A DNA stretch of 41,890 nucleotides from a virus. Shown here piece after piece: positions 4,290 to 37,986 of the stretch. The notes under the pieces are model-generated. The model was not told the origin of the DNA, made no database searches, and saw only the letters and a program-made list of their open reading frames with translations. Each line of letters starts with the position of its first letter. The stretch's first letter is position 1. The position numbers and the translations under genes were made by a program. The stretch lies in the IMG/VR virus record IMGVR_UViG_3300044643_000677, positions 1 to 41,890 of that record; one strand, 5' to 3'.

Positions 4290-7200
4290 GGTGCTCCGGA
4301 GATCTCACGACGACGAAGGAGCTCTTCAAGGGTCATCAGGCGTCCACGAGCAGACAACATAACCTGGTTGATCTGATCATCAGAACGGTACGGAACAAGT
4401 GGCGTACCAAACAAGCGAGCAGTTGCAGCAAGTCGACCGCCTGGAGATTCAAGGCGTTGTCCCGTGACTGGGTTTATTCGTGCTTCACCAGTCTGATAAC
4501 GAGACACAGGGCCAAGGGCAATGCGTGTACCCGGGATGTTGTCAAACGGCGTCGGGTTGATGTTCATGATACGAGTGGCAAGCGGGAACTGCTGAAGCGT
4601 AAAGCCCAAAGCTTCTCCTGGGTTGCGTACCACACCACTGTATGTCAAGTTTCCTGCTTCGTCGTATGATCCGGTTCCAGCCGGACGACTAAGACTACGC
4701 ATTTTTGTAATGTCAAGACCAGCCGCTCCGCCAACAAGACGAGGCACGGGACCAAGGGACTGACCAAGAGGCTTGACGTTTCCTTCCAGTACTAAGGAAG
4801 CTATCGGGCCACCAAGAACGTCAGCAAATGGGTTAATAAATCCAGCGTTTGATACTCCGCCAAAAGCACTGATTGATCCACGACGGAGGTTCATTGGATC
4901 TTCTTCGGCGTTCATATACAACGAACCGAGGTACATGTAGTAGCCCAAGAAGTCAGGGTTTGTGTCAACAACCAGGTTGAAGACATGATGGATATGACGC
5001 ATCCATGAATAGAATGGGAATGCCTGAGAGTAGTACATTCTTTCTTTCATGTTTAGGTTTGCATAATCTCCAAGCCAGTCGTTTGCGGAATCAGCAGCGT
5101 CGAACACTAATTGACGAATTTCCGGATCGTTCTTCCATCCAGCAGCAGAATCATTATTGAGTTGCTCCAGGGTCATTCCTCGTGCTTTCAACGATTCCTG
5201 GAGTTTAGAAAGAAAGAAAGCGTGGCGCATCAACTTGTTGATTGAGGCGTTGATGTTATACATGGTGCCAACAACTGCCTTGTTGAAATTGCCGATGTAT
5301 CCAATTTGCTTAATGCCAAGTTTGTCCGCAATGCGATTTGTTAAACGCTTTTTGGGATCCATTGTTTCCGGATACAGAACAGCTCTTTCTTGAGCCGTTT
5401 GTCCAAGATCCTGAACCGGTGATTCTGAAGCCACACGACCAAGTGGTCCTACGGTCATTGGTTCAGGGGTTAAAAAATCCTTAAGTCTTTGAGGAATGTT
5501 TGCGTTAGCATCGATTTCCGGAATAACGAAACGCTTTAATGTTTGCAAAGCGTCTTTTCTAGTAGCTACCGATCCAAATTCCTGCTCAAGAACTGTATTT
5601 AGTTGTTCAACAAACACACTAAATGGAATACCCGCAGCCTTGGCAATTTGCATACTGGAAATAATGTCGCCAAGTTGCCAGGGGATAGAGAAGACAAGCG
5701 TTGTTGTTTTCATGGCAGACGTAACTGCTGCCGATGCTTTTAGCATCTTGGTGAGCGCTGCGTTCTTTTGAGGAACAACCACCTGCATCATCACTTCCCG
5801 CATACCGGTTGGGAGGAACATCGTTTCAGGGACAATATTTTCCCTAACGGGCTCAAGGTCTGCTGGGTCTATTCCTTCGTCTACTGGCGTAAGTCGATTG
5901 GCATTGACGTCGCGCTCAGGATAAAGCGCTTTAATGTCTTTGTATGGATCAATTGGGTCATAACCAATCTTCTTCATCGCCTCAGCAATAAGTGTTCCGT
6001 ATTGTTTACGAATAGCAAATTCACGAGCCTGAGTTGGGCTTGGGATTCCAGGGGCGTAAGCCGCAATTCCTGGAACAAAATCGGGATCTTGCTGCGCCCT
6101 TTCCCACTCTTCCTTGAACATGCTTTGGAGAGTAGAGGCGTCGTAGTTGTCGGCCCACTGAACAGCCTGTTCGTAAAGCTGTTGAGTAAATTCGTCCCCG
6201 AGAATCGCCGAAGCGGTTTCGCCGTAGGTCGCAATGATAAAACGGTATCTTTCGTTCTCAACCATCATTGATACTTCTTGGCCCATGCGAATAGCAACTT
6301 GCTCAAGAGAGAAGATCACATGGCGGTCGCCGTCTCGATAGTGTTCACTCTTAAGATCACGCCATCCCGTGAGTCCCTCTTCAGTAACGTCCTGAGCAAC
6401 TCCACCAAAGAACTTCTTTGGTCCACCGGAAGGAACGTACATAGGACCGCCGAGGGGCACGACATTGCCTTCAAGGTCAGGGAGGGAATAGCCGCCAACG
6501 TTTGTTGGGAAGTTGTCACCCATGGCCACATCAAGCGGGATGTTGCCCTTGAGCTGTTGGTACTCGTCGTAGTAAGGGCTTGAAAGAATCGACTCAACGG
6601 CTTCTTGGGCTGGCCCCAACCCTTCTTGTGCCTGCACTTGCTTTAGGCGTAGGTCAGCAATTTCTTGTTCAAGCTTATCCCTGCGGGCACGGGCGCGTTG
6701 CGAGACCTCAAGCTGGATAGCCAGTCGGTTTACTTCAACGTCGTACTTGGCTTTTTGTTCGAAGTATTCTTCAAGGAACTGAAGACGCTGGGTGAGTGTT
6801 TCAGCAGCGTTGAGAGCGGCAGAGGCATCAGCAGCAGCAGCATCAGCCAGGTCGGCGAAGTACACAGCCTTCTGTATGGCCTCGTCACGAATCTTAGGAT
6901 CGACCTGCACTTCTGCTGGGGTCTTTGCCTTGGGACGAAGTGGTGCTGGTGCCGGGGCAGCCGGTGCTTCTGCAGCGGGGACTGGAGCAAAACTCGGTTC
7001 TGCTGGCGACAAAGGTCTAGTAACAGGGAAATCTAAAAGGTATTGATCAAAAATAGCGTCAAGGTCGGCTTTAATTCTTTCGCCAACTTCTTTGGGGATT
7101 TTTGAAGCTTTGCTATCAATCCATTGCTTTGCTCGATTAATACGTTCTTCAACGCTAATTTTAACTTGACCACTGCCAGCAATCGGCATTGTCAAAGCGG

Positions 7201-31411: not shown

Positions 31412-31656
31412 CGTTCCCACCCCTGATTAGAGGCTCTCCACTGTGTAGGAGCGTGATCTGCCTCAATCTGACGGCGGTGATCCTGGTCTTCGTACATTCT
31501 GATGATGTGGACGCATGGGTCGTTCTCAAAGAACTCCTCACACTCCTCTTCGCTCATCGGGAGGCCATCATGGGTGTAACAGACCGGAGGACTGCAGTAG
31601 CCCCGTTCCCAGCCATACTTCATCCATTCGTCAGCTGTCATGTCCTTATCGCTCAC
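31408..31656 (-). CDS. Small conserved actinophage-type hypothetical protein
   Basis: 82 residues from a GTG at 31654-31656 that overlaps the preceding stop (GTGA). Contains WERGYCSPPVCYTHDGLPMS and an acidic stretch (EEECEEFFENDPCVHIIRMY). I have seen this Cys/His-containing pattern among actinophage hypotheticals, but its role is not known. The Cys pairs could bind metal. Confidence 0.6.
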   Translation of the reverse strand: MSDKDMTADEWMKYGWERGYCSPPVCYTHDGLPMSEEECEEFFENDPCVHIIRMYEDQDHRRQIEADHAPTQWRASNQGWER

Positions 31657-31739
31657 CACACGCCCTCCGATGGGTTCTTTTCCTTTACTTCGGGTATTTC
31701 TACTTCTCCACCCCATTGGGTGATGTTTACTGTTGTCAT
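31653..31739 (-). CDS. 28-residue leader-like ORF, first of the regulatory operon
   Basis: Small frame with good SD (AAAGGAAG) 5 nt before the ATG at 31737-31739. It ends in a GTGA overlap with the next gene, and begins MTTVNITQWGGEVEIPEV. It is the first frame after the strong promoter, so it is either a genuine microprotein or a translational leader that couples ribosomes to the next gene. Confidence 0.5.
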   Translation of the reverse strand: MTTVNITQWGGEVEIPEVKEKNPSEGVW

Positions 31740-31763
31740 ACAGCTTCCTTTCGGTTGTAGATC

Positions 31764-31792
31764 ACAATAGTACAAGCTAATCTTCAAGTCAA
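31764..31792 (-). promoter_or_regulatory. Promoter of the leftward regulatory/packaging operon
   Basis: Minus-strand -35 TTGACT (31787-31792, five of six), exact 17-nt spacer, -10 TATTGT (31764-31769). Predicted start near 31757, 18 nt before the first ATG, with an SD in between. This is the best-matching vegetative promoter upstream of the HTH-ssb-WhiB-terminase genes. Confidence 0.65.
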
Positions 31793-32741: not shown

Positions 32742-33161
32742 TTACTGCTGGGTGAGACACTCCGGACACAGCGAAGCGCCAAGGGTCTCGGCGTCACACT
32801 TCCAGCAACGACGAGCACAGGTAGGGCAGGACAGGTACGAGCCTCGCAGGTCTTCGGGTTCTGTCATGTCGTAACGCTCCAGGTCGTCGGGGTCTACGAG
32901 GTCATAGCACTGCTTGCAGCGTGTCCCCTCGTGTGCATCGACTCGGCGTTCAATGTCTCGCAAGTGGTCGGGGTTCAACAGCCACAGCGAGACCGCCACA
33001 GCGTCACGGCCTGCTTTGCGCTCGTCGTCTCGGTGCTGGTTCGCTTCGTCCTCGTTGTCAAATATTCCATTTGTCCATCGGTCGCCGTTGGGCTTGCTAA
33101 CGAAGACAACCCAGCCACCCCACTCGGGGCTAAGTGTTGTCGGGTCTTGCTTCTCGGTCAT
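32742..33161 (-). CDS. Zinc-ribbon hypothetical protein
   Basis: 139 residues from the ATG at 33159-33161 (AAAGGA SD at about 9 nt). The longer frame upstream runs through a terminator and promoter, so I reject it. The N-terminal half (WGGWVVFVSKPNGDRWTNG) is beta-rich. The C-terminal half has CKQC, then CPTCARRCWKC and CPEC, enough for two zinc sites. Transcribed alone from its own promoter. Function unknown; nucleic-acid or protein binding is plausible. Confidence 0.65.
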   Translation of the reverse strand: MTEKQDPTTLSPEWGGWVVFVSKPNGDRWTNGIFDNEDEANQHRDDERKAGRDAVAVSLWLLNPDHLRDIERRVDAHEGTRCKQCYDLVDPDDLERYDMTEPEDLRGSYLSCPTCARRCWKCDAETLGASLCPECLTQQ

Positions 33162-33180: not shown

Positions 33181-33205
33181 GGCGTTGTTGCCGAGTGAGA
33201 GCGTA
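33181..33205 (-). promoter_or_regulatory. Early promoter with start-site palindrome (variant)
   Basis: Minus-strand -10 TACGCT (33200-33205), 7 nt, then GGCAACAACGCC (33181-33192), a GGC/GCC palindrome at the expected transcription start. The leader would be about 31 nt. There is no good -35. Same layout as the promoters at 34.3 and 34.78 kb. The 12-mer differs from that at 34.31 kb by two transitions. Confidence 0.5.
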
Positions 33206-33212
33206 CACGAAA

Positions 33213-33248
33213 AAAGACCCCCGACCGTGTCACCGGCTGGGGGTCTTT
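33213..33248 (-). terminator. Rho-independent terminator
   Basis: A 10-bp stem AAAGACCCCC/GGGGGTCTTT (33213-33222 with 33239-33248) followed on the minus strand by a T-run. It ends the transcript of the gene stopping at 33272, and the next promoter begins directly after it. Confidence 0.75.
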
Positions 33249-33271
33249 CTTTGCCCTAAGGCTGGGGGTTC

Positions 33272-33598
33272 TTAGTCCTCGTGGCAGTCGTGGAGACCGT
33301 CTAGCCATCGGTCACAGTCGTGAGGGTTGTCGGCGTACTCGATAAGAGCCTTAGCCAGTAGGTCGAGTTCTAACCAGCCGAGACCGTTGGTCTCAGTCGT
33401 GCCCCATACGCTGCACTTACTGCCCCAGCGATCCTGTGAGTAGCCCACAAGGTCAAGGAACAATGGGAAGGGGGCGTTTTCTCTGTCGTAGTTCAACGAC
33501 CAGCCCCAAAGGTAAGCGATAGCCCCAGCGTATGCCGGAGCGTTTTCGGTGTATGTCCACACAGAGACCGTCTCTGTTTCTTTCTCTTCGGTACTCAT
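33272..33598 (-). CDS. Hypothetical acidic early protein
   Basis: 108 residues, acidic and Trp-rich (AYAGAIAYLWGWSLNYDREN; LDGLHDCHED at the end). SD AAAGGG 7 nt before the ATG. Not recognised. Single-gene transcript between its own promoter and terminator. Small acidic early phage proteins often inhibit host enzymes, but nothing here proves that. Confidence 0.6.
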   Translation of the reverse strand: MSTEEKETETVSVWTYTENAPAYAGAIAYLWGWSLNYDRENAPFPLFLDLVGYSQDRWGSKCSVWGTTETNGLGWLELDLLAKALIEYADNPHDCDRWLDGLHDCHED

Positions 33599-33621
33599 TG
33601 AGTCACCCTTTCTTTCGTGAA

Positions 33622-33647
33622 CGCCTTGGCGCTCGTTGTCGAGGATA
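33622..33647 (-). promoter_or_regulatory. Early promoter with nearby palindrome
   Basis: Minus-strand extended -10 TGCTATCCT (core 33642-33647) and CGCC-AA-GGCG (33622-33631) in the leader. The palindrome is shifted and different in sequence from those at the other early genes, so this is a looser member of the set. Leader about 36 nt. Confidence 0.4.
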
Positions 33648-33680
33648 GCAGACTAAAAGAAGCTTGCGCAGTCATCTTGT

Positions 33681-34289
33681 CTAGAAGCTTGCGCCGTCTT
33701 CGTCGTCGAGGTCGTCGCCGTAGTCTTCACTATTCGCCTGGTCTTCATCGACCATGCCTTGAACGAATGACGAGAGACGACCGGCAAGGCGCTGGCGCTG
33801 TTCTTCGCTCATGCTCTCTTTTCTCATCTCGTAGTTTGCGAACATTTGGAGAATGAACGAACGACCCCACACTCTCAGCGCCATAGCGTCGATAGCGTCA
33901 GCGAGTGCGCCCGTAGCGCCTCCGTCGTCATCTACTGGTTCGGTCGGCGTGTCCTCGAAGACCATGCGAGAGGCGATATCACCGTCTCGGGTGGCGACAC
34001 AGAACAAGACAACACGACGGCGCTTAGGGTGCTCACTTGGTGCGCCTTCGATCGTGCCATCTTCGCCCAGGGGTGCAGCCCAGCCCGTCGTCAGTACGCC
34101 CACAGCGTGAGGAGTGTGGCGGTCTTCAGGGTCACGACCCACACCGTTCAGGAGCATGTAAACATCGTCGCTATCGGCCGTGTTCAACCACTCAGCGCCG
34201 AACAAGTGCCAAATCTGTGCACCGCCTCCCTTCTTGGGAATTTTCACCGCCGTACCTAGTGCGCTTAGGTGTTCCACTGCTGTATTCAT
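33681..34289 (-). CDS. Hypothetical early protein
   Basis: 202 residues. The central part (HAVGVLTTGWAAPLGEDG, then RRRVVLFCVATRDGDIASRM) is alternating beta. A helical part (ALADAIDAMALRVWGRSFIL) follows, and the C-terminus is strongly acidic (DYGDDLDDEDGASF). SD AAAGGGG. The layout of beta core plus helix weakly resembles the third gene of the MoxR operon. Own promoter; no terminator hairpin was seen in the gap to the next gene. Function unknown. Confidence 0.6.
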   Translation of the reverse strand: MNTAVEHLSALGTAVKIPKKGGGAQIWHLFGAEWLNTADSDDVYMLLNGVGRDPEDRHTPHAVGVLTTGWAAPLGEDGTIEGAPSEHPKRRRVVLFCVATRDGDIASRMVFEDTPTEPVDDDGGATGALADAIDAMALRVWGRSFILQMFANYEMRKESMSEEQRQRLAGRLSSFVQGMVDEDQANSEDYGDDLDDEDGASF

Positions 34290-34309
34290 TTTATGCCCCT
34301 TTCAGGCTC

Positions 34310-34356
34310 GGCATTATTGCCACGGGTGAGCATACACGAAAAAACCCCCAGCGCAA
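34310..34356 (-). promoter_or_regulatory. Early promoter with start-site palindrome, -35 inside a terminator
   Basis: Minus-strand -35 TTGCGC (34351-34356), 16-nt spacer, -10 TATGCT (34329-34334), 7 nt, then GGCAATAATGCC (34310-34321), a GGCA-N4-TGCC palindrome at the predicted start of transcription. The -35 lies within the loop and stem of the preceding terminator. Leader about 32 nt. Confidence 0.55.
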
Positions 34357-34372
34357 TAACTCACGCTGGGGG
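34345..34372 (-). terminator. Rho-independent terminator
   Basis: CCCCCAGCG (34345-34353) pairs with CGCTGGGGG (34364-34372), followed on the minus strand by TTTTTT. It ends the gene stopping at 34388 and overlaps the next promoter. Confidence 0.75.
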
Positions 34373-34387
34373 TCTTCGCCGGACTAA

Positions 34388-34747
34388 CTAGCCAAGGCTG
34401 GGGTGGCTCACCACTTCTGCGCCATGCAGTCGAAGTGCGTCCTCTGTCGTTGGGTGCGCTGTGTCTTCGTCCGTTGCGAAGTCGTACCAGGCGGTGAGTT
34501 CGTTCAAGCTTGAGAACCCATAGACCCTCGACCGAACTTGAACACGGAACGGGTAGCGACCTGGGTGCGCTTCGATCGCAAGACCGACGACCTCACCCTC
34601 ACCAAGTGCAGCGTCGATGGCTCGCTCGGTCGCTGTGCGCTTGTATTCGCGAACACTCTCACCGTCGGAAAAGCCCAACTCGTAGGCGAGTATTCCCGTT
34701 AGAAGAATGACCGATACGACGGTCGCCGAAATAATAAATGCGAACAT
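34388..34747 (-). CDS. Single-span membrane-anchored early protein
   Basis: 119 residues. N-terminal hydrophobic span (FIISATVVSVILLTGILAY) without a clear cleavage site, then a soluble domain (VVGLAIEAHPGRYPFRVQVR). The soluble part probably lies on one face of the membrane. Own promoter and terminator. Superinfection exclusion is one possible role of small membrane early proteins, but there is no direct evidence. Confidence 0.6.
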   Translation of the reverse strand: MFAFIISATVVSVILLTGILAYELGFSDGESVREYKRTATERAIDAALGEGEVVGLAIEAHPGRYPFRVQVRSRVYGFSSLNELTAWYDFATDEDTAHPTTEDALRLHGAEVVSHPSLG

Positions 34748-34767
34748 GAGTGTTCCCTTTCGTTAGT

Positions 34768-34792
34768 GCCATTAGTGGCGACCCCGACAATA
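34768..34792 (-). promoter_or_regulatory. Early promoter with start-site palindrome
   Basis: Minus-strand extended -10 TGCTATTGT (core 34787-34792), 7 nt, then GCCACTAATGGC (34768-34779), a GCCA-N4-TGGC palindrome at the predicted start. Leader about 32 nt. Spacing is identical to the 34.3 and 33.2 kb sites. The -35 is unclear because a terminator stem occupies that place. Confidence 0.5.
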
Positions 34793-34796
34793 GCAA

Positions 34797-34834
34797 AGAC
34801 CCCCGAGCAAGTGGGGGAACTCACTCGGGGGTCT
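34797..34834 (-). terminator. Terminator after the MoxR-VWA operon
   Basis: An 11-bp perfect stem AGACCCCCGAG/CTCGGGGGTCT (34797-34807 with 34824-34834), followed by TTTGC on the minus strand. It lies between the third gene of the operon (stop at 34900) and the next promoter. Confidence 0.65.
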
Positions 34835-34899
34835 CTGTTTGTTGTTGGGGGAGAAAGGGTAAAAACCCCAACGCCCACAACTCTATCGGGGAGGTTCGC

Positions 34900-35688
34900 C
34901 TAATCCTCACCGAATTCTAAAACGCCGGACTCGATGCCATTGGCGACAAGCTTGAGAACGAACGCCAGCATCTCTTTGCCGTTGGGCTCGTTGCTATTGC
35001 GTAGAGCGTTCTCGACTAGACCCTCAGCGTTCATGCTTCCACCGTTGCGAACCGTGTCATAGATGACAGTCAAGAACAAGAACGAAGACATAAGTGCCTC
35101 GTCCACCATTCCCGAAGGCTGGGGGTTGTCGTGCTCGCCAGTCCATTGTTCGGCGTGTTCGACTTGTGGCTTGCTCTTGCTCGGTCGGAACATGGCAACC
35201 TGGGCACCCAGCCCGAACGGCGTGATGATATTGGCGACCCGAACGGGAACCTCACCCTCATCGGCTGCTTCAAGTTCTTCGATAGCACCCTCTTCGAGCA
35301 ATCTCTGTCGCATCTCTTCCTGTTCTTCTTTGGGAATGTCTTCCCACCATGAAGGCTCGCCGGTGATATTGATCGCATAACGACCCGTTCCGTGAGTCAT
35401 GAGCACGATCGCTGAGACCTTGGTCGTATGGTGTCTTAGTTCAGCCTTGTGACTGTCCTTCAGTAGCACAACGCCTTCGCCAAAAGCTTCGAGGAGTGCT
35501 CGGTCGGGAGAGTCAGCAATACCGCCGAGTCGCCACCGCTTGACCCACTCTCCGTCTTTCCATGTTTCGGTTGCCAAGTAGCAAAGGCTCTTGTGCTCGT
35601 CGCTGGTTGTGATGTTCTTGTCGTACCCATAGGTCGCCATGAAATCGTTCAGCATTGTCATCGGTCGTAGTTCATCTTGTAGGGACAT
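34900..35688 (-). CDS. Third gene of the MoxR-VWA operon, unknown function
   Basis: 262 residues. Begins MSLQDELRPMTMLNDFMATY and contains a beta core (VSAIVLMTHGTGRYAINITG), an acidic helix (IPKEEQEEMRQRLLEEGAIE) and a helical C-terminus. TAATG overlap with the VWA gene shows tight coupling. No known domain recognised. By position it is either the substrate, an adaptor or an effector for the ATPase/VWA pair. Confidence 0.65.
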   Translation of the reverse strand: MSLQDELRPMTMLNDFMATYGYDKNITTSDEHKSLCYLATETWKDGEWVKRWRLGGIADSPDRALLEAFGEGVVLLKDSHKAELRHHTTKVSAIVLMTHGTGRYAINITGEPSWWEDIPKEEQEEMRQRLLEEGAIEELEAADEGEVPVRVANIITPFGLGAQVAMFRPSKSKPQVEHAEQWTGEHDNPQPSGMVDEALMSSFLFLTVIYDTVRNGGSMNAEGLVENALRNSNEPNGKEMLAFVLKLVANGIESGVLEFGED

Positions 35689-37136
35689 TATTTGCTCTTT
35701 TCTTGTTCTTTGTCGTAAAGGTTCAAAGTGTTCTTTATTTGTCGAACATATTTGTTCTGTGGCGTTCGGACTCCACGCTTCATGTCGGCGAGTATCTGTA
35801 AAGCTTCTTCTGCATTTTCCGCACCGATAATTTTGTGCTTACGCTGGAATAAAGCAGCCTCTAGTAGAAGACTGTCAGCCCAGGTGTCGTACTTGCCAGT
35901 CACTTGACCGTCCGATACCCACAGAATGAAATCCTTGGTGTTCTTGCGACGACGCACAGCCCATTGAAGGACGGGGCCATCTATGCAGTTTCCGCAGTGA
36001 AGTGAAAGGTCTCCAAAGTCTTCTTCGGAAATCATTCGCCCGTTGTCGGCAACCACCCACACATTCGGCTGACTATCGCCTCGTGTTGAGTAGAGCACGA
36101 CGGTCGCTCCAGCGAATTGTTTCACAACATCTTTGACAGTCTCGTGAGATATGCCCATAGAGCCGGAACAGTCGAAGACAACAATCCCACCATTAGAGCG
36201 AACGGTCTCGCGAAAAATGCGACGCTCGGGGTCGGTGAGTAAGCGATCGGGTCGTGTTGGGTACTTACCAACCATCGCCGGACGCTTGCGACGACCCAAG
36301 AAGAACGCCGTTGTCTCGGTCAAGCTTGTCATGCCAAATCGCAGGTTATCCCACTCTCCATCTACGGGTTTATGACGACGGCTCCCCATTCCTTCGGGTG
36401 CTGGCTTCATTGGTGGGTTCTCTGTCCACTCGTCAATTTTGTGTGCGAGTGGCATGGCATGATTCATGAACCCATCGGGAAGTGTTTCCAGGTGTGGAGT
36501 TTTCTTGTCGTACCAGCGATAAGCGGTCGCAGAAGTATCTCGAAGGCGGTGCTTAGAAATAGCGTGCCTATCTCCAACCTTGGAGTCGTAACGATAGCCA
36601 TTAGCACCGAGCCACTTGCCGATTATGTCAAGGGGTTCTCTCCACTCAGGGTTACGGCGAAGTCGTCGCTTGACGGTCTTATGAATGTCCGTATTGAAGG
36701 TTGTGAGGAAAAGGTTCAGAGCGTCGTTCCAACTGTTACGAGTAACAGCGTTATCGGCCAGTCCTTGCTCGGAACCATCAGCCAGGTCTTTCGTGTCACC
36801 GATTACCTTGTCGCCAATCATGCGACCCAGCAAGTTCACTCGTACTTCTTCTGCAAGCTTCACCCCTTCGGTCGTCACACCTAGTTGGCGCATGAGTTCG
36901 TGAGGGACTTTGGTCGGGCTAATTCGAGCATGAATAAGTTCGTGCAGGCGTACTGCTGCATCAGCCGGTGTGTCGCCAGTCGGGACTGCCATCTCATTCG
37001 ACGAGAAATCCGTGTACGAAGCGCCACGGACAAGAGGGGCGGAGCGTATGCCCCACCCCTCCCTCAATGTCCCGTCTACAAGAACATCAGCACGACCGCC
37101 TACTACCCACTCGGGGGAAATAATGCGCTCGGTCAT
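35688..37136 (-). CDS. VWA-domain protein with HExxH metallopeptidase-like motif
   Basis: 482 residues. The N-terminal region carries HELIH (65-69) in RLHELIHARISPTK, and EE at 96-97 (KLAEEVRVN) could supply the third zinc ligand. The C-terminal VWA-type domain (about 316-430) has the MIDAS motif DCSGSMG (322-328) and a later WVSDG (406-410). The pairing of a putative metallopeptidase domain with a VWA domain resembles DUF2201 proteins, and CobT-like proteins also share the VWA part. The ATG abuts the stop of the MoxR-type ATPase gene. It probably acts as substrate-binding partner of that ATPase; proteolysis is unproven. Confidence 0.75.
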   Translation of the reverse strand: MTERIISPEWVVGGRADVLVDGTLREGWGIRSAPLVRGASYTDFSSNEMAVPTGDTPADAAVRLHELIHARISPTKVPHELMRQLGVTTEGVKLAEEVRVNLLGRMIGDKVIGDTKDLADGSEQGLADNAVTRNSWNDALNLFLTTFNTDIHKTVKRRLRRNPEWREPLDIIGKWLGANGYRYDSKVGDRHAISKHRLRDTSATAYRWYDKKTPHLETLPDGFMNHAMPLAHKIDEWTENPPMKPAPEGMGSRRHKPVDGEWDNLRFGMTSLTETTAFFLGRRKRPAMVGKYPTRPDRLLTDPERRIFRETVRSNGGIVVFDCSGSMGISHETVKDVVKQFAGATVVLYSTRGDSQPNVWVVADNGRMISEEDFGDLSLHCGNCIDGPVLQWAVRRRKNTKDFILWVSDGQVTGKYDTWADSLLLEAALFQRKHKIIGAENAEEALQILADMKRGVRTPQNKYVRQIKNTLNLYDKEQEKSK

Positions 37137-37913
37137 TTAGTAACCACTTCCTGAGGCGACTGTCTTAGTGTTGTCTTCGGCATGAACGATATGGGGGTTG
37201 TCAGGTTGTTCAGCACCGATAGAACGAGCAACTTTGATGGCGTGATGAATCGAGTTCGCCTCTTCACCGAAGACGAGACGCACAGCCGATTCTGTTCCGA
37301 TCTTCTGCTCAAGCTTGTCGAAGGCGAAGAACGAACGAAGAGAGAAGCGGTCTTTAGGTCGGTTGGCGTAGGTCGTAGCGACACTTTGCAAGTGAGCCGG
37401 GAGACGCTTCACAGCGTCAGGGTTCACTTCGCTGATGTTGATACGGACAGGGAATCTGTCCACCAAGTTCGCAGGGAGGTCGCTAAGGCGCTCGGCGTTG
37501 GTCGTTGCGATAATTTCGAAACCGTCGGCTGGTGTCATGCGCTCGCCCGTCTCGGGGTGTTCGCGAACAGCAGAACCGTCGCTATCGCAAATCAGCAACA
37601 ACGCCGTGAGCACATCGCCGGAGGCTTGGTCGAGTTCGTCGAGGATAAGACGGTCGCCACCTTGCCATGCACGAAGCGCAGACCCAGCAACGAATTTCCA
37701 CTCGTCTTTACTGGGCTTCCACAGTCCATCGACATCGGCGGTCGTCATATCAGGCGAGCAAAGAACTCGGTACGAGTTGCGCTCCCGACCCTCGTGTTCG
37801 AGGTATTTGTTCAAGGCAAAATGCGTCTTGCCAGTTCCAGGTGCTCCGTAAAGCAGCACTCGGTCTGTTCCTGCACTAAGTGCAAGCTGTAAGTCATTCC
37901 AACATTGGGACAT
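37137..37913 (-). CDS. MoxR-type AAA+ ATPase
   Basis: 258 residues. Walker A GAPGTGKT (23-30), Walker B LILDELD (89-95), sensor 1 ATTN (136-139) and a DRFPVRI segment near 152-158 with a likely arginine finger. The closest groups are MoxR/CbbQ-type (AAA_5) ATPases, which work with VWA partners to remodel or activate target proteins, and the partner follows immediately. First gene of a three-gene operon driven by a palindrome-associated promoter. Confidence 0.85.
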   Translation of the reverse strand: MSQCWNDLQLALSAGTDRVLLYGAPGTGKTHFALNKYLEHEGRERNSYRVLCSPDMTTADVDGLWKPSKDEWKFVAGSALRAWQGGDRLILDELDQASGDVLTALLLICDSDGSAVREHPETGERMTPADGFEIIATTNAERLSDLPANLVDRFPVRINISEVNPDAVKRLPAHLQSVATTYANRPKDRFSLRSFFAFDKLEQKIGTESAVRLVFGEEANSIHHAIKVARSIGAEQPDNPHIVHAEDNTKTVASGSGY

Positions 37914-37933: not shown

Positions 37934-37986
37934 GTCGGCAGGGTTGCCGACGGTCGAAGTGTAGGGCATACTTGCAACTATGACAA
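37934..37986. promoter_or_regulatory. Divergent control region with 18-bp palindrome
   Basis: Leftward promoter: -35 TTGTCA (37981-37986), 17 nt, -10 TACACT (37958-37963). Rightward promoter: -35 TTGCCG (37944-37949), 17 nt, -10 CATACT (37967-37972), whose start falls at the ATG at 37980, so that transcript would be leaderless. GTCGGCA-N4-TGCCGAC (37934-37951) is a perfect palindrome. It covers the rightward -35 and begins at the predicted leftward start, so one bound protein could control both directions. Confidence 0.65.

Follow-up and report, generated by a model that had tools for sequence, protein, structure and literature searches.

Short hairpins with covarying stems lie at the predicted transcription starts of early genes in a freshwater phage clade

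The DNA analyzed here (the window) comprises 41,890 bases of an IMG/VR virus record and has a G+C content of 49.7%. Between 32.7 and 37.9 kb, its minus strand has genes for a MoxR-type ATPase and a protein that matches phrog_33218, along with one further gene and small genes that mostly belong to no known family. The MoxR AAA ATPase and its CobT/VWA-like partner (35688-37913) form the most conserved early gene pair of the freshwater clade, while the closest MoxR proteins in annotated phages, those of Gordonia phages, show less than 30% identity to that of the window. The presence of a WhiB gene points to an actinobacterial host, with cultured ‘Ca. Nanopelagicales’ phages serving as the WhiB comparison (PMC10202952). 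Neither a near-identity DNA search nor tblastn with the VWA protein retrieved relatives of the window among annotated phages; relatives exist in IMG/VR only, from which scans for terminase, MoxR and VWA yielded about a dozen related contigs (G numbers below).

A sequence-only reading of this region had described three leftward genes that each carry a -10 element, a 7-nt spacer and a palindrome, and all three cassettes are present as described: TACGCT-N7-GGCAACAACGCC (33181-33205), TATGCT-N7-GGCAATAATGCC (34310-34334) and TATTGT-N7-GCCACTAATGGC (34768-34792), each separated from its ATG by 19-20 nt in which AAAGG occurs (Table 1). The three palindromes are imperfect, with 3, 4 and 4 outer pairs, respectively. 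Any single site of this kind is unremarkable, as the window, over its two strands, has 21 occurrences of TAnnnT-N7 followed by 3 or more outer pairs; only the three cassettes, however, are placed at a distance of 19-20 nt from an ATG that has a Shine-Dalgarno sequence. Two further sites, which had been listed as a related core (37937-37948) and a looser version (33622), turned out to be full members: the former forms the centre of a hairpin of 18 nt with a 7-bp stem before moxR, located 6 nt downstream of the -10 element TACACT, and the latter belongs to a hairpin 7 nt after TATCCT. Three of the five hairpin promoters start right at the terminator of the gene before them, a feature absent from the earlier description, and several units thus read as terminator, -10 element, hairpin, Shine-Dalgarno sequence, one gene and terminator. 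In contrast, the strong promoter of the operon leading to the HTH, SSB and WhiB genes has no hairpin at +1, either in the window or in G002. This small-gene promoter region (31653-31792), which has a very short leader, is kept in G001 and G002.

Table 1 Promoter, hairpin and terminator-like features of the early region (positions in the window)
Feature	Positions	Strand	Remark
Contrast promoter TTGACT-17-TATTGT, operon leading to HTH, SSB and WhiB genes	31764-31792	-	
5'-terminal hairpin GGC-AACAAC-GCC, gene 32742-33161	33181-33192	-	predicted +1 ~33193
-10 element TACGCT of the 33161 gene	33200-33205	-	
Terminator-like inverted repeat of upstream gene 33272-33598	33210-33251		abuts promoter of the 33161 gene
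5'-terminal hairpin GAGCGC-CAAG-GCGTTC, gene 33272-33598	33619-33634	-	one G-U pair
-10 element TATCCT of the 33598 gene	33642-33647	-	
5'-terminal hairpin GGCA-ATAA-TGCC, gene 33681-34289	34310-34321	-	outer U-G pair; predicted +1 ~34322
-10 element TATGCT of the 34289 gene	34329-34334	-	
5'-terminal hairpin GCCA-CTAA-TGGC, gene 34388-34747	34768-34779	-	predicted +1 ~34780
-10 element TATTGT of the 34747 gene	34787-34792	-	TGC before it (extended -10)
Terminator-like inverted repeat of upstream gene 34900-35688	34794-34837		abuts promoter of the 34747 gene
5'-terminal hairpin GTCGGCA-ACCC-TGCCGAC, MoxR/VWA operon	37934-37951	-	first base is predicted +1
Sigma-70-type promoter TTGTCA-17-TACACT, MoxR/VWA operon	37958-37986	-	

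As a lone TAnnnT-N7-palindrome is common, the signal above chance comes from the relatives. A spacing scan over upstream regions of the MoxR/VWA-carrying relatives revealed that hairpins of at least 4 bp after TAnnnT are enriched at a distance of 5-8 nt only (20 versus 7.6 ± 2.2 in shuffles, maximum 11), whereas 35 were observed at all other distances versus 28 in shuffles, and a second spacing scan gave the same peak. Folding of 32 homologous promoters, which were picked by orthology regardless of pairing and whose -10 elements were each assigned by eye, showed a minimum of the mean energy of 18-nt windows 6 nt after the -10 element (-5.5 kcal/mol, against about -0.7 kcal/mol at offsets 0 and 13-14). 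The moxR promoters with the arrangement TTGnCA-17-(C/T)AnnnT match at 9-11 of 12 hexamer positions, and since both hexamers are present, they allow a start-site prediction that makes no use of the hairpin. In 8 of 8 such moxR orthologues the first stem base is the 7th base after the -10 element, with 6 nt between them, which is the conventional +1; in the distant G016 it lies one base past the predicted +1. No unpaired base would thus precede the stem in the moxR mRNA. Across all members the first stem base lies 5-9 nt after the -10 element, with start sites predicted from the promoters. By eye, larger inverted repeats were also seen to start about 7-8 nt after a -10 element at the divergent gene beside moxR in G002 (c20508; GCTCAC..20 nt..GTGAGC after TACTAT) and in G014 (c42350; CGCG..12 nt..CGCG after TACCAT).

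In the predicted structures of the 32 leaders the hairpin precedes the Shine-Dalgarno region, which the +1 stem leaves free, although a separate second Shine-Dalgarno hairpin is predicted in some of them. These leaders bear on a role in the initial transcript or in translation, in which the hairpin would aid promoter escape or keep the first bases off the Shine-Dalgarno sequence, with strong and uniform early expression as the outcome. The stretches following the hairpin are mostly open around AAAGG, and the promoters of the 33681 group and the moxR promoters of G005 and G008 show a second predicted hairpin whose loop holds or borders the Shine-Dalgarno sequence, both of which would suit such a role. 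However, a hairpin that spans +1 to about +18 can fold only once the RNA is out of the polymerase, i.e. after escape, and insulation of the ribosome-binding site alone would not need a stem that starts exactly at +1. We therefore regard this role as unlikely. The second hairpin, found at 34289-34309 and in the homologues of G002, G003, G005 and G008 with GAAAG from the Shine-Dalgarno region in its loop, itself covaries (GCCU-GAAAG-GGGC in the window, CUAC-GAAAG-GUAG in G005 and G008) and, judging from the predicted folds, may possibly present or regulate the ribosome-binding site.

Comparison of orthologous promoters revealed that pairing is kept while sequence is free. The moxR hairpin of the window (Table 1) corresponds to GTCGGC-AATAAC-GCCGAC in G002, CGGC-AACAAC-GCCG in G005, GTTGGC-AACC-GCCAAT in G014, CTCGGC-AAC-GCCGAG in G007, GCTCGCC-ATCGG-GGCGAGC in G019 and TCTGATCGC-AACGG-GCGGTCAGA in G016. 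MAFFT alignments of the leaders split stems with odd loops, and covariation was accordingly counted on an ungapped, centre-anchored subset of 17 hairpins, so that the counts omit divergent members. Within this subset, 4 of 5 stem pairs have changed on both sides; the covariation score was reached in 0 of 500 shuffles, with the tool's caveat on related sequences applying to it, and the two-sided pair counts in 7 of 500. When chimeras of the 5' half of one promoter and the 3' half of another were refolded freely, pairing was weaker in 20,000 of 20,000 permutations. G-U pairs account for 13 of 148 stem pairs. In the 33681 group, for instance, three paired sites differ between TGTCGGCA-TAG-TGTCGGCA and TGTTGGCA-AAG-TGCCGACA, each rescued by G-U; in the comparison of G005 with G008, three paired sites differ and all still pair via G-U. 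No Rfam 15 family matched the window at gathering score.

These data bear on the two options left by the sequence-only reading, the first of which was that the palindromes are operators of one regulator, i.e. that each is the DNA site of a single dimeric phage or host protein (HTH or WhiB) at the start site. Many temperate phages do place repressor sites at promoter start sites, and in the window short dyads overlap the predicted starts of several early promoters, many copies have GGC(A)..(T)GCC in common, and both an HTH-like and a WhiB gene are at hand. The half-sites, however, are not conserved. Orthologous promoters swap GGC..GCC, GCCA..TGGC, CACCCC..GGGGTG and TCTGATCG..CGGTCAGA for one another and remain self-complementary, and GTGG/CCAC and GCTCGCC/GGCGAGC occur among the variants as well. 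An operator with fixed half-sites would tolerate their exchange between promoters, whereas here exchange weakens pairing, as expected of an RNA stem. In addition, the asymmetric centre AAYAAC stands in one orientation to the gene in all cassettes, G-U pairs are tolerated, and the 5' edge of the dyad tracks the start site; comparing the variance of this edge with that of the dyad centre gave no discrimination. The operator set is hence disfavoured, and we consider it improbable that one regulator accounts for the palindromes, which on comparative grounds are hairpins encoded for RNA at the predicted transcription start rather than copies of one operator.

Small short-loop hairpins at each early gene also recall the promoters of the N4 virion polymerase, and the elements might accordingly serve a phage RNA polymerase. 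The hairpins of N4 promoters lie upstream of the start and are conserved in sequence. In the window the -35 and -10 elements account for the start, the hairpin lies downstream of them, and no RNA polymerase was found among the window proteins scanned with Pfam, a scan that left late-region proteins aside. An N4-type hairpin promoter is thus likewise disfavoured, and we hold it to be very improbable.

Lack of conservation in close relatives, named by the sequence-only reading as the observation that would speak against its proposal, was looked for, and the palindromes are kept there. The hairpin of the 33161 gene recurs upstream of its L004/G001 counterpart as TGGC-AACAAC-GCCA and that of the 34747 gene in G001 as TGCCA-CCAA-TGGCA, and hairpins are present in 9 of 10 folded promoters homologous to that of gene 33681-34289 as well as in 9 of 10 folded moxR promoters. 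The hairpin even persists, with new stems of 7-9 bp, in the distant G016 and G019, whose MoxR proteins are ~54% and 44-46% identical, respectively. A covariance model built from the 17 hairpins matched almost only cassettes (720 kb scanned), and in a blind search it found new members before genes in G006 at 35252 (TATGCT-N7-GTCGGC-AACCAC-GCCGAC) and in G020 at 5858. On the other hand, the promoters of the moxR and 33681 homologues of G015 and of the 34388 homologues of G002-G004 have no clear hairpin, indicating that the hairpin is not obligatory, and no separate promoter was seen before the G001 counterpart of gene 33272. Phages sharing only the terminase (about 70%) showed no enrichment (5 versus 4.5 over 112 distinct upstream regions), with single clear cases in G020 and G023. 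The G023 case (L171:6190-6240) reads TATAGT-N7-GTGGC-CGGATA-GCCAC and has a long leader of ~100 nt. The spacing scan gave no enrichment of +1 hairpins in phiC31 (1 versus 1.3 in shuffles), Jinkies or Vibaki, and a weak one in ACP17 (5 versus 1.8).

The second option of the sequence-only reading, that the palindromes are 5'-terminal RNA hairpins which set mRNA stability, is upheld as far as the hairpin goes, by the start at +1, the compensatory changes, the G-U pairs, the loop orientation and the conservation; for the effect on stability we can offer a probable reading. We propose that the palindromes are the DNA of 5'-terminal stem-loops on early transcripts which most likely serve to limit 5'-end-dependent decay. 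A host-type RNA polymerase would start at, or 1-2 bases from, the first stem base, and the mRNA, if the hairpin forms in vivo, would open with a stem-loop of 3-9 bp, after which comes an unpaired leader that carries the Shine-Dalgarno sequence and then the ATG. The early transcripts would be single-gene or single-operon messages, with the gene often ending in a terminator hairpin that bears the next promoter. The base-paired 5' end would bar an RppH-type pyrophosphohydrolase and 5'-end-dependent nucleases (RNase E, RNase J), and a 5' hairpin together with a 3' terminator would give short single-gene messages closed at both ends. In both E. coli and B. subtilis, stem-loops at the 5' terminus are known to stabilize mRNA, and the RppH of B. 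subtilis requires two or more nucleotides at the 5' end to be unpaired (PMC3997798). Against protection stands M. smegmatis, where half-life was uncorrelated with the structure of the 5' UTR, and deleting two 5' hairpins left the half-life of a reporter unchanged (PMC11728522). Several further observations count against it: some stems are weak (3-4 bp, -4 to -5 kcal/mol at 37 °C), the G015 and G002-G004 homologues named above do without a hairpin, and the loop A-A-N-N-A-C with its closing GGC/GCC recurs in unrelated phages, beyond what bare protection needs.

This last point concerns a particular version of the hairpin. The core GGC-AACAAC-GCC (GGCAACAACGCC), placed 5-10 nt after a -10 element and before AAAGGA, was found in 17 stretches in IMG/VR, ten of them in further contigs, whereas the reversed core CCG-CAACAA-CGG, which is also self-complementary, was found in none with the same pattern. 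About five phage lineages outside the clade of the window carry the hexaloop hairpin at a predicted +1, as in TTGACA-17-TAATAT followed by TTAGGC-AATCAC-GCCTAA, TTGATT-17-TAATAT followed by ATGGC-AACAAC-GCCAT or, in Acidovorax phage ACP17, TTGCAG-17-TACATT followed by ACGGC-AACAAC-GCCGT. The outer stems vary by lineage (ATGGC..GCCAT, ACGGC..GCCGT, TAGGC..GCCTA), while the inner GGC/GCC and the hexaloop AA..AC are kept; the loop variants AATCAC, AATTAC, AATACC, AACCAC and AAACAC all have the ends AA...C. AT-rich freshwater phages (L182, L183, L185, L188, L179 and L186) have near-consensus promoters (TTGACA-17-TAATAT) with the same +1 hairpin at no fewer than two genes each and loops AACAAC, AATCAC, AATTAC or AATACC. 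In ACP17 (NC_041997), a T4-like phage of a betaproteobacterium, the hexaloop hairpin lies at +1 of gp252 (L189:47505-47524, ~155,504-155,523), and two more promoters (L189 genes 20312 and 27094) have unrelated +1 hairpins. A GTDB scan for the loop core with N7 returned 23 matches over unrelated phyla, none of which resembled a promoter-leader cassette and most of which look like chance.

Plain 5' protection leaves the recurrence of the hexaloop and the inner GGC/GCC unexplained. It could be accounted for if the A-A-N-N-A-C-loop hairpin bound a conserved bacterial RNA-binding protein or nuclease cofactor and was a specific signal for stability, localization or translation, beyond a steric block of the 5' end. 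GGC-A-A-N-N-A-C-GCC at +1 would then be a cap-like RNA module, recognized by a widely conserved bacterial factor; phages of Actinobacteria and of Betaproteobacteria, unrelated to each other, would use it, be it by descent or convergence, to protect their early mRNAs or to license them. The absence of the reversed core and the retention of the loop ends AA...C at canonical promoters of lineages with differing outer stems speak for such recognition. Other members, however, have unrelated loops (CTCC, ATTGG, ACTT, CAAG, ATCGG), so that the hexaloop is not required everywhere, and no binding protein is known. While we consider recognition by a dedicated factor, the signal it would carry and the cap-like module each rather unlikely, a hexaloop-binding protein is a serious rival within the RNA reading.

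Returning to 5'-end protection, nearly every separately transcribed early gene of the window phage and its relatives is predicted to give an mRNA that opens with a small hairpin. If true, almost all separate early messages in this phage clade have been given a structured 5' end, and in abundant freshwater phages early infection would be designed around mRNA lifetime as well as promoter strength. With their matched promoters, the short +1 hairpins form a natural series that should be useful for testing mRNA protection by 5' structure in actinobacteria, and the hexaloop common to the clade and to unrelated phages is flagged here as unexplained.

Among known phage systems, the early region of the Streptomyces phage phiC31 carries conserved inverted repeats and terminators at its early genes. 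As in the window, several early units there each have a promoter, a dyad and a terminator, but in phiC31 the repeats serve as operators for a repressor and have a conserved sequence, whereas in the clade of the window the sequence is free and the pairing kept. Cluster O mycobacteriophages likewise have many short dyads in the early region of an actinophage, namely 17-bp palindromes of the form TGTTCGG-N3-CCGAACA; these are fixed in sequence, lack an orientation to genes, lie mostly away from promoters and are partly intragenic (PMC4351075), in contrast to hairpins that stand at +1 only, in one orientation and with variable sequence. The start-associated sequences (SAS) of Cluster K and the stoperators of Cluster A, both named in the same source (PMC4351075), are also small repeats in actinophages. 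SAS are linked to gene starts and tied to translation starts, stoperators are asymmetric sites for a repressor and conserved in sequence, and neither is known as a covarying hairpin at the transcription start. Closest in position are E. coli ompA, papA and bla with an added hairpin, in which the hairpin likewise occupies the extreme 5' end and is separate from the ribosome-binding site. Stem-loops of this kind slow 5'-end-dependent decay in E. coli and B. subtilis (PMC3997798), and by analogy the phage hairpins may extend half-life. Those are single cases of cellular genes, whereas in the phage clade the arrangement is repeated at most early promoters, with small stems and a recurring loop. 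Stabilizing stem-loops at the 5' terminus are thus known, while their serial use at phage early promoters, of which no systematic report was found in the open-access literature, and a hexaloop version across unrelated phages are new.
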